Shown piece by piece: positions 2,428-54,223 of a stretch of DNA of 64,000 nt (position 1 is the first letter of the stretch; the number at the start of each line of letters is the position of its first letter). This DNA comes from Pseudomonas tensinigenes. GTDB lineage: Bacteria > Pseudomonadota > Gammaproteobacteria > Pseudomonadales > Pseudomonadaceae. The position numbers were made by a program, and so were the translations under genes. The notes under the pieces are model-generated. The model did no database searches. It was not told where the DNA came from and was given only the letters and a program-made list of their open reading frames with translations. Where the stretch lies: positions 6,557,779-6,621,778 of the forward strand of contig NZ_CP077089.1 in assembly GCF_014268445.2 (NCBI RefSeq), read 5' to 3'.

Positions 2428-3687
<1,260 letters not shown>

Positions 3688-51550: not shown

Positions 51551-51636
51551 CTCAGCCCTTCAACCATCCCGGCAACGTCCTACAACCTGCACCACCGCCG
51601 TCCGATTGCGCCGAAAAGCCCAGGTTTCTAAGCTCA

Positions 51637-51849
51637 CCCGATGCTGAAAGTTCAGCACCGGGTTTGGCGACCCGAACAGCTTAAGGCGCACGACAACCAT
51701 GATGGCGGCTACATTTACCGCCACATCGTTTCATGGCGGTTGTGCGTGGGAGACCTTCGGGTCTGCCGGGTTCCTTTTGCTCCGGTTCGCCAACCCGCGT
51801 ACAACTGCCACCCAATCGTTTGGCGACGATTGAGGGCAGCCCCTTAAGC
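51637..51849 (+). ncRNA. C4-like antisense RNA leader of the BRO-N gene
   Basis: A highly structured, gene-free leader 16-230 bases before the BRO-N start. Seen: hairpin TGCTGAA-AG-TTCAGCA (51642-51657), and a long stem of TGGCGGTTGTGCG (51734-51746) with CGCGTACAACTGCCA (51796-51810). This stem encloses AGACC-TTCG-GGTCT (51751-51764) and GGGTT/AACCC. TTTGGCGAC occurs twice (51663, 51819), each followed by a TTAAG block. The loop CGCCAA (51788-51793) is complementary to both TTTGGCGAC copies, and GCTTAAGG (51679-51686) pairs with CCTTAAGC (51842-51849) next to the ribosome-binding site. The layout matches the C4 RNA of phages P1/P7, which silences an antirepressor gene. Recognition is from memory. 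Confidence 0.7.
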
Positions 51850-51864
51850 AAGAGGAACTGCTCA

Positions 51865-52392
51865 ATGAATCAAGAAGAGACTTATCTGACCCCGCACATC
51901 TTTACCCGCCACAAACTCCCCCTCCACGCCCTCCTCATCCAGAACCAACCCTGGTTCTGCGCCCGAGACCTGAGTCGCCTGCTACACATCTACCTCAACG
52001 AACGCATGCTGCGAAAACTCGACCCCGACCAATACCAGACCCGCAAAACCCTGATCCACAATCAAATCGAAAACACCCTGCTGATCAGCGAATCCGGCAT
52101 CTACGCCCTCCTCGTCTACCACTACTGCCCCGAATACCGTGCGCTACGCGAATGGCTCACCCACCAGGTCATCCCCACCCTGCGCGACGCCCAACACCCC
52201 ACCACAAGCGAACGTCCACACCTCAGCTTGCTCAGTTGGCCGGACATGACGTTGAGTTTGTTGCACTGGAATAACCAGCCGTGGATACGGCTGCAGGATG
52301 TGCCGTTGATGGTGGTGGAACGGGAACAGACCAAGCGCCCAATGACGGGGCCATGGTGGAAAAGAGCTTCGCGGATGCTGCAATCGCTATAA
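51865..52392 (+). CDS. BRO-N domain protein (prophage antirepressor-like)
   Basis: A 175-residue protein with a BRO-N domain in its first half: PLHALLIQNQPWFCARDLSR, ENTLLISESGIYALLVYHY and REWLTHQVIPTLRDAQ. The C-terminal half repeats the pattern (LLHWNNQPWIRLQDV) in a shortened form, so it may be a degenerate second copy. BRO-N is typical of phage antirepressors such as P1 Ant. AGAGG precedes the ATG at 51865, and an RNA of the C4 type precedes it. No other phage gene is adjacent. Its stop overlaps the convergent higA stop. Confidence 0.85.
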   Translation: MNQEETYLTPHIFTRHKLPLHALLIQNQPWFCARDLSRLLHIYLNERMLRKLDPDQYQTRKTLIHNQIENTLLISESGIYALLVYHYCPEYRALREWLTHQVIPTLRDAQHPTTSERPHLSLLSWPDMTLSLLHWNNQPWIRLQDVPLMVVEREQTKRPMTGPWWKRASRMLQSL

Positions 52393-52656
52393 ACCCGCAT
52401 GCCGGAACTGGGCTCTGCGCAAATCGTAAGTCGATTGGAGATTCATCCAGAACTCAGGCGTAGTGTTGAGATGAATGGCAAGGCTGATTGCCAGATCGGC
52501 GCAGATCCTGAGCTGGCATTTCACAAGCTTTTCGATCTCACTTTCGGGCCAGTTCGTGGGCATGGCCAGATCCATGACAGTCATGCCCAACGGCTCCATG
52601 AATTCCTTATTCAAAACCTCGCCCGGATGAATCGGGCGCATACCATTGCGATCCAT
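52387..52656 (-). CDS. higA: HigA-type antitoxin, no HigB partner seen
   Basis: An 89-residue XRE-like DNA-binding protein with the HigA/VapI pattern: MRPIHPGEVLNKEFMEPLGM, then an altered helix-turn-helix (MTVMDLAMPTNWPESEIEKL) and the C-terminal NTTPEFWMNLQSTYDLRRA. GGAGG precedes the ATG. In higBA loci the toxin lies just upstream of higA on the same strand, but the 200 bases upstream here hold no toxin frame. It overlaps the BRO-N gene end by six bases. It may be an orphan antitoxin or a general repressor. Confidence 0.8.
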   Translation of the reverse strand: MDRNGMRPIHPGEVLNKEFMEPLGMTVMDLAMPTNWPESEIEKLVKCQLRICADLAISLAIHLNTTPEFWMNLQSTYDLRRAQFRHAGL

Positions 52657-52753
52657 TTTTCGCCTCCAGAGGCTGCGTTGAGTGGCCAAACTGGAACATC
52701 CGACTCCCGGATACAAGACCTTCACCCCCCTTTCGCCGGCGTCCTACAACTAT

Positions 52754-53484: not shown

Positions 53485-54018
53485 ATGCGAAGAAAAGGCA
53501 AAGGTACCGAGCTTCGAAATCAGACACTCAAATCTGAATCGCGCAAACTTGCACATCAAACAATGTCCATGGACCCAGAAGCCCTGGCAGCTGGAGTTGA
53601 TACCCTATCACTCAGGATCGATCCGATTACTCCAGTAGCAATCAACGCATTCCACCAGTGGACCGGCCCCGTTGGGTATCCCTGGGACGCTGTTTTGGAC
53701 TGGAAGACCAAAGATGCAAAAGGGCTGGACTTGGCGTTTTGGTACGAAGAAGAACTGTGCGGACTGTGCTACGCAACGCCGCGAAGAAGCACGATCTGCG
53801 TGAAAATCGTTTTACAGGGACACACATGCAAGACGAATACCTTGCGGGGCTGGATCGCGCCGATGGCATTGCTGACAACAGAGTTCTACGCCCGGAAGCT
53901 GGGGTGCACGCAAATCGAAGTACAAGAGCCAGACTCAGGCGCCATTCCTTACTATCAAACGCTGGGATTTTATTTTGATACAACCGGTCGCCTTGTCTTT
54001 CCATTGGACGACCAATAA
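53485..54018 (+). CDS. GNAT-like N-acetyltransferase (tentative)
   Basis: A 177-residue protein. The N-terminal 25 residues are basic and helical (MRRKGKGTELRNQTLKSESR). Then come LSLRIDPITPVAINAFHQWT, FWYEEELCGLCYATPRRST and a C-terminal ALLTTEFYARKLGCTQIEVQ and GAIPYYQTLGFYFD. The last block is like the end of GNAT acetyltransferases (YYxxLGF). The acetyl-CoA loop (Q/RxxGxG/A) is not clear, so activity is doubtful. No good ribosome-binding site precedes the ATG. It lies between the two 56-residue genes, 34 bases before the second. An internal start near 53563 is possible. Confidence 0.6.
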   Translation: MRRKGKGTELRNQTLKSESRKLAHQTMSMDPEALAAGVDTLSLRIDPITPVAINAFHQWTGPVGYPWDAVLDWKTKDAKGLDLAFWYEEELCGLCYATPRRSTICVKIVLQGHTCKTNTLRGWIAPMALLTTEFYARKLGCTQIEVQEPDSGAIPYYQTLGFYFDTTGRLVFPLDDQ

Positions 54019-54052
54019 GATCGAATCAAGCATCCCGGCACGTGAGGTGTTT

Positions 54053-54223
54053 ATGAAGCAGAAGAAGCAGAAAACCCAACCGGCACGGGTGTCCAAACCG
54101 GGTACCGAGGCACTCGGTTTGCCGGACAGAGTTTCAGCCAGTCAGCGACATTTTTTGAAAGTGGCCGCGACCTATGGCAAGGAAATGGAGCCCGACGGTT
54201 GGCTCGCCGGTGGTGGAACCTGA
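54053..54223 (+). CDS. 56-residue small protein, second of two paralogues
   Basis: A 56-residue protein (MKQKKQKTQPARVSKPGTEA at the start) with the conserved half RVSASQRHFLKVAATYGKEM, then EPDGWLAGGGT. It has exactly the same length as the protein at 52858, and 24 of 56 residues are identical in a gap-free alignment. GAGG lies five bases before the ATG. A terminator hairpin follows at 54240. The N-terminus is Lys/Gln-rich and the C-terminal half probably helical. Function unknown. Confidence 0.72.
   Translation: MKQKKQKTQPARVSKPGTEALGLPDRVSASQRHFLKVAATYGKEMEPDGWLAGGGT

Follow-up and report, generated by a model that had tools for sequence, protein, structure and literature searches.

The window analysed here is a stretch of 64,000 nucleotides from Pseudomonas tensinigenes, whose genome of 6.62 Mb is assembled as a single contig. 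Within the window, a gene encoding a BRO-N antirepressor-like protein is preceded by a 228-base leader (51637-51864) that contains a C4 antisense RNA (Table 1). Comparison with Rfam yielded a match to the C4 family (RF01695) at 51729-51815 scoring 88.1 bits, relative to a gathering cut-off of 45 (E value for the window, 4.7e-16). As model positions 1-87 of 87 are covered, the match is full length, and the C4-like antisense RNA that a preliminary description of this DNA had placed before BRO-N is indeed found there. Two families named for Pseudomonas were also matched by Rfam in the window.

Table 1. Features of the C4 leader and the BRO-N gene (positions in the window).
Feature	Position	Strand	Basis or remark
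Promoter-like candidate: TTGCGC (51606-51611), 17-base spacer, TAAGCT (51629-51634)	51606-51634	+	Read from the sequence
Short 5' hairpin (ATGCTGAA..TTCAGCA), immediately before a1	51641-51659	+	Sequence, fold
a1, upstream target copy GTTTGGCGAC	51662-51671	+	Complementary to a'; exact
b1, upstream b-target copy AGCTTAAGG	51678-51686	+	Imperfect: two central mismatches relative to b'
C4 antisense RNA (RF01695), three-stem structure	51729-51815	+	Covariance model; covariation
b', loop of stem P3, GTTCCTTTTGCT	51770-51781	+	Complementary to ribosome-binding region
a', single-stranded C4 junction TCGCCAA	51787-51793	+	Complementary to a1 and a2
a2, downstream target site GTTTGGCGAC	51818-51827	+	Complementary to a'
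b2, AGCAAGAGGAACT, contains ribosome-binding site AGAGG (51851-51855)	51847-51859	+	Complementary to b'
BRO-N antirepressor-like protein, 175 aa	51865-52392	+	Pfam Bro-N, 1.2e-11; PHROG anti-repressor families; omega 0.19

The BRO-N protein scores 45.5 bits against Bro-N (PF02498), above the Pfam cut-off of 25.6, and its similarity to PHROG anti-repressor families suggests that it may be a phage antirepressor. The gene begins 49 bases after the end of C4, with no small first ORF at the position of icd in P1. Beside it lies a lone HigA-like antitoxin ORF (52390-52659, minus strand), matched to phrog_1381 (1.2e-20) and to no Pfam family. The earlier statement that no other phage gene is present is therefore upheld only in part: among the neighbours compared with Pfam (seven ORFs) and with PHROGs (three ORFs), this was the one further phage-like match. 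Searches of NCBIfam with six proteins and of defence-system models with four returned no match.

Two copies of TTTGGCGAC, at 51663-51671 and 51819-51827, flank the C4 RNA, and both are complementary to TCGCCAA at 51787-51793, as had been proposed for the loop CGCCAA. The arrangement is that of a C4 RNA, in which a' is complementary to a downstream site and b' to the ribosome-binding site of the gene predicted to be controlled. Together with flanking bases, b' can form up to 13 pairs with b2, one of them G-U. In the upstream target set, a1 is exact and b1 carries its mismatches; b1 follows b' on average in orthologous leaders, matching it better in some (e.g., L084, L099). A different second contact, between GCTTAAGG (51679-51686) and CCTTAAGC (51842-51849), had been put forward. 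These strings are present and complementary, yet both occur in only 12 of 77 ortholog leaders, so that the pair is not a conserved contact and was rejected. The contact of the P3 loop (51770-51781) with the ribosome-binding site (51847-51859) is the better supported b interaction.

Fold and covariation of the C4 RNA

The leader folds at -110.3 kcal/mol, as compared to -76.9 (sd 4.7) for shuffled sequences (z -7.1; none of 200 shuffles as stable), in line with the stable stems described earlier. Covariation among homologous loci, which the preliminary description had left to be sought, was found. In an alignment with 52 distinct rows, made up of the window C4, one paralog and 55 of the 77 ortholog C4s, 98.6% of stem cells are paired, 30 cells are changed on both sides as compared to 7.0 in shuffles, and the covariation score is 0.136 as compared to 0.104. 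Two of the five measures are weak, namely, pairs changed on both sides (5 versus 3.4, with 30 of 500 shuffles reaching 5) and further pair types (21 versus 19.5, with 68 of 500 shuffles reaching 21). The ortholog signal lies mainly in P1, with one doubly changed pair in P2 and none in P3. Among 46 distinct paralogs, P1 contains 55 double changes, relative to a shuffle maximum of 30. Membership in the C4 family is thus reflected in a score above the gathering cut-off and in covariation of the three-stem structure, for P1 mainly. Because the automatically derived structure of model R1 omits stem P3, R1 served only for locating C4 RNAs and pairs were not judged by it.

When the leader is folded whole, its minimum-energy structure pairs the 5' strand of C4 with sequence lying upstream of C4. 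This anti-C4 pairing scored no better within loci than between them (16.15 versus 15.99; 6,240 of 20,000 permutations at or above the own value), a null that an invariant conserved pairing would also give; a two-state leader is therefore not claimed.

Conservation of the locus in Pseudomonas

Orthologous loci were collected by searching one genome per species with the window protein, a scan that covers close relatives only; the best 80 of 87 relatives were retained. All 80 are from Pseudomonas, with orthologs at 98% identity among them. BRO-N is preceded by amtB, glnK and ubiK in 76 of the 80 loci and followed by comM in 77. Of the four loci lacking ubiK, L090, L106 and L136 start at a contig end and L098 does not; in the three lacking comM (L120, L137 and L149), the sequence stops 1.2-3.6 kb past the gene start. 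C4 precedes BRO-N in 77/80 loci, being missing from L090, L098 and L137.

From the start of the match onwards, 72 loci contain an open frame of 160-186 aa and the other eight do not, the match in L160 being a fragment. For 2,503 pairs drawn from the loci with an open frame and the window (dS 0.1-1.5), the median omega is 0.19 and no pair reaches 1. BRO-N is, as such, under purifying selection. Among the orthologous loci, neither the length nor the content of the interval separating BRO-N from comM is constant. A relative of the HigA-like ORF is found in 55/80, and the stretch 53485-54223 of the window holds an 82-aa ORF, with relatives in 49/80, and a 177-aa ORF with no Pfam match that appears acetyltransferase-like by eye, with relatives in 18/80.

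The two loops behave differently. The a' 7-mer TCGCCAA is identical in all 77 ortholog leaders with a C4, while b' takes 24 forms, two of which depart from the commonest solely by an N and by register, respectively. Represented once each, these b' forms pair on average better with their own ribosome-binding region (20.69) than with those of other classes (13.60) and, more weakly, with their own b1 (15.38 versus 13.83); none of 20,000 permutations, which treat related leaders as independent, reached either own value. No foreign site outscores the own one in 13 of 24 classes for b2 and in 8 of 24 for b1. Taken together, C4 presence, synteny, open frames, omega and covariation across loci make the locus look old, vertically kept and constrained in both RNA and protein. 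Survival on the chromosome, as claimed earlier, is accordingly borne out as far as maintenance is concerned; the solitary status also claimed is not, as considered below.

C4 RNAs elsewhere in the genome

The implied singularity of the locus proved wrong. Across the whole genome, 48 C4 matches were found, 47 of them above the cut-off. An ORF of at least 60 aa starts 30-75 bases behind C4 at 44 of the 48 places, the start of one having been set by hand before Pfam assignment. These ORFs comprise 35 encoding DUF6124, three Bro-N, two DUF3077 and four without a Pfam match. The last (at L022, L045, L048 and L050) are of about 100 aa and have no NCBIfam match; those of L045 and L050 resemble each other. 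Viewed from the other side, 36 of 39 DUF6124 places stand behind a C4 (one of the 39 is below the Pfam cut-off, and one fragment row was left out).

When excised at a fixed position, the a' 7-mers of the 47 distinct C4 sequences take 26 different forms, a few being register shifts of one another. For these 47 RNAs, mean helix scores of a' with own sites were higher than with those of other loci at both a1 (17.97 versus 12.69) and a2 (17.87 versus 11.83). The same held for b' at b1 (17.71 versus 14.07) and b2 (19.40 versus 13.02). In each test, again treating related leaders as independent, 0 of 20,000 permutations reached the own mean. At strict thresholds of 14 for a and 16 for b, 37 of 48 C4s make both contacts with their own leader, as compared to 26 of 2,256 foreign combinations, and 33 of 48 have no foreign target. 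Thresholds of 14/14 gave 42 own and 56 foreign matches, with 21 C4s lacking a foreign target, and thresholds of 12/14 gave 43, 123 and 6, respectively. Considered alone, a' crosses in 337 foreign combinations. Among the strict cross-matches, the window C4 fits the leader of place 37, and the window leader is matched by the C4 of place 5. As reflected in these counts, the privacy of the predicted loop codes is clear on average but incomplete. Because loop sequences vary among the approximately 47 leaders, each C4 is predicted to control chiefly its own gene, cross-matches occurring in some cases.

The C4 places are dispersed, with 27 of 48 on the plus strand, a median spacing of 110 kb and six gaps of less than 10 kb. 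Relative to the C4 start, dispersed paralogs align from about -210 to +490/630 in the longer cases; for all 206 paralog alignments through C4, the median span is shorter, at about -165 to +250. This fits duplication of promoter, leader and gene as one cassette. Several features of these cassettes were noted by eye. Hairpins comparable to that before a1 in the window stand at many other C4 places, and TAAGCT or TATGCT is seen at the same place in many paralog leaders, the upstream hexamer falling outside many of the stretches compared. Moreover, many DUF6124 cassettes (e.g., L013, L017 and L028) carry a conserved block, GCCAGAATCCGCCGGCTTGTGCG, a possible regulator site that either overlaps their promoter-like region or lies before it. 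A plasmid origin was set aside, as a search with one DUF6124 protein returned no plasmid match.

Distribution of C4 and DUF6124

C4 was found in 138 of 149 Pseudomonas genomes. In a set of 19 Pseudomonas genomes, 18 contain 1 to 48 copies and one contains none (median of the 19, 15). Outside the genus, 2 of 10 genomes from other genera of the same order have C4, in one copy each. At class level, C4 was found in 18 of 274 sampled genomes, including the one studied here, the other 17 having 1-6 copies. C4 and DUF6124 numbers rise together across the 19 genomes (Spearman 0.86). One Pseudomonas genome, G009, has 38 C4 copies and only two DUF6124 genes; hence, genes other than DUF6124 are probably also under C4 control.

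Viral C4 loci

Pseudomonas phage records and viral contigs also carry C4, with the P. aeruginosa phage loci L162 and L163 containing the a' TCGCCAA. The pattern used to collect the viral set was taken from the C4 of the window itself, so that window-like RNAs are favoured in it; the 43 copies obtained comprise 21 distinct C4 sequences, nine of which have this a'. Antirepressor domains are encoded in five viral C4 loci, namely, Bro-N (L172 and L195), P22_AR_N (L184 and L179) and Rha (L189). All but L172 (TTACCAA) share the a' of the window, and in four of the five small ORFs come first, that of L172 and of L195 being 52-56 aa.

Pairing was scored on 19 viral leaders, corresponding to 18 of the 21 distinct sequences and phiAH14b, with the L166 leader shortened at an early ATG. 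The window C4 reaches both thresholds on eight of these, more than any other of the 48 chromosomal C4s. Its b' scores below the virus's own b' on 17 of the 19. The exceptions are L161, where the window b' is higher but the pairing of a' is shifted, and L187, where b' is tied but a' fails. Because the sample derives from a window-like pattern, the fit of the window C4 to viral antirepressor leaders is suggestive only. A second viral scan, with a pattern containing the window a', added at least 77 new loci, 21 of 77 being matched to C4 by model R1; as these share a' by construction, they were used for no count.

When phage records were searched with one DUF6124 protein, a single match was obtained, in Pseudomonas phage DVM-2008 (48% identity, 78% query coverage), where the gene stands behind the C4 of L164. 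By eye, G+C-rich stems followed by T runs, resembling early terminators, lie between b1 and C4 in two phage leaders (L162, at about 2890-2970, and L161, at about 2960-3000).

Discussion

The structure, complementarities, co-evolution, synteny and purifying selection computed here are best read as reflecting a C4-type antisense module of phage origin that became fixed on the Pseudomonas chromosome and keeps an antirepressor-like BRO-N gene silent, a reading assigned a probability of about 0.8. We infer transcription, processing and repression by the RNA, as well as antirepressor activity of the protein, in the following manner. The leader and BRO-N would be transcribed together, and the C4 portion would fold into three stems before being cut out, by RNase P if the analogy with P1 applies. 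The a' junction would then bind a2 and the P3 loop b' the ribosome-binding site, leaving BRO-N untranslated, and the upstream a1 and b1 copies would be able to bind the same C4 loops. By analogy with P1/P7 (PMC5320573 and PMC12197685), BRO-N would remain silent until C4 became scarce or was titrated. The P1/P7-like antisense logic suggested by the preliminary description is thus in agreement with the covariance model and with the complementarity of a' to a1 and a2 and of b' to the ribosome-binding site.

Alternatively, C4 may be kept mainly for action in trans, repressing antirepressor operons of incoming or resident phages with the same a' and b' sites and so conferring immunity, with BRO-N a passenger or trigger. 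That a' is identical in 77/77 orthologs despite 24 b' forms argues for such a role, as do the nine of 21 viral C4s with TCGCCAA, four of them before antirepressor genes (L195, L184, L179 and L189), and the eight of 19 viral leaders on which the window C4 reaches both thresholds, the highest number for any of the 48 chromosomal C4s. Yet, the viral set was drawn with a window-derived pattern, the window b' falls below the viral b' on 17/19 leaders, BRO-N itself is under purifying selection, and its two cis partners could also hold a' fixed. This role is considered rather unlikely to be the main one.

The cassettes could also be selfish elements or products of gene duplication, with promoter, C4 leader and small ORF spreading together and the C4 code diverging as copies separate. 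The long paralog alignments, the dispersal of copies over both strands with few short gaps, and a copy number that ranges from 0 to 48 within Pseudomonas all point in this direction. By contrast, the BRO-N copy, the sole copy tested, kept its place in the sampled species, and this origin is judged unlikely.

A broader proposal is that the large Pseudomonas repertoire of C4 riboregulators, each unit combining a promoter, a C4 leader and a small gene and most having private two-part codes, might be a chromosomal RNA system for sensing or blocking phages with the same codes, the BRO-N copy being aimed, through TCGCCAA, at a common Pseudomonas phage code; this is advanced tentatively, as a doubtful extension. 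Finally, a decaying prophage remnant without function today, as the eight of 80 loci lacking the frame, the three lacking C4 and the absence, the HigA-like ORF excepted, of other phage genes among the neighbours tested might suggest, is highly improbable given the selection on BRO-N (median omega 0.19, 72/80 frames open) and the co-evolution of loops with their targets.

If BRO-N is held silent by a C4 module as favoured here, and the paralogous RNAs work as predicted, Pseudomonas would supply a collection of natural antisense switches, ready for use and cross-matching to a limited degree, and would allow a test of whether bacteria retain phage immunity RNAs against the phages from which these came. 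The C4 design is found in dozens of chromosomal copies, with matched loop codes, beside DUF6124 and DUF3077, families to which no function has been assigned. In an open-access library of papers, nothing was found on C4 arrays in Pseudomonas, on matched loop codes or on DUF6124 or DUF3077 under C4 control; no paper in it named DUF6124 and one named DUF3077.

C4 became known as an immunity RNA of two coliphages. The operon order in P1 is c4-icd-ant, with the small icd ORF between C4 and the antirepressor gene. The RNA described here is matched by the same covariance model as that of P1/P7 and shares with it the three stems, the loops a' and b', target sites to either side, a b2 that covers the ribosome-binding site and an antirepressor-like gene within control range. 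It differs in being chromosomal, with no rest of a phage seen and many copies per genome and, unlike P1, in having BRO-N directly behind C4 with no icd-like ORF. Viral C4 operons from IMG/VR share its a' (L195, L184, L179 and L189; TTACCAA in L172) and its association with antirepressor domains (Bro-N, P22_AR_N or Rha); these lie on viral contigs, four of the five with at least one small ORF between C4 and the antirepressor gene. According to PMC5320573, RNase P releases the P1/P7 C4 RNA, of about 77 bases, from a longer transcript.

The c4-a1b1 motif, described from gamma-Proteobacteria and phages (Weinberg et al. 2010, PMC2864571), consists, by its name, of C4 with an upstream a1/b1 region, as found here; the accessible part of that description gives no Pseudomonas copy number, gene family or loop co-evolution. 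A further parallel is offered by Acinetobacter baumannii, where the group 1 C4-like small RNAs comprise 21 similar sequences in one genome, with a variable a' region and an RNA-seq pattern consistent with processing (PMC5320573). Many C4 RNAs per genome are hence common to both; in the parts of that source consulted, the A. baumannii RNAs are not each assigned a target pair of their own or a family of downstream genes, whereas the leaders considered here have their own a1/a2 and b1/b2 sites and, in most cases, a DUF6124 gene behind them. The C4 family, including its multi-copy form in A. baumannii (PMC5320573), is therefore known, and it is the many-copy chromosomal array in Pseudomonas that is the unexpected part.
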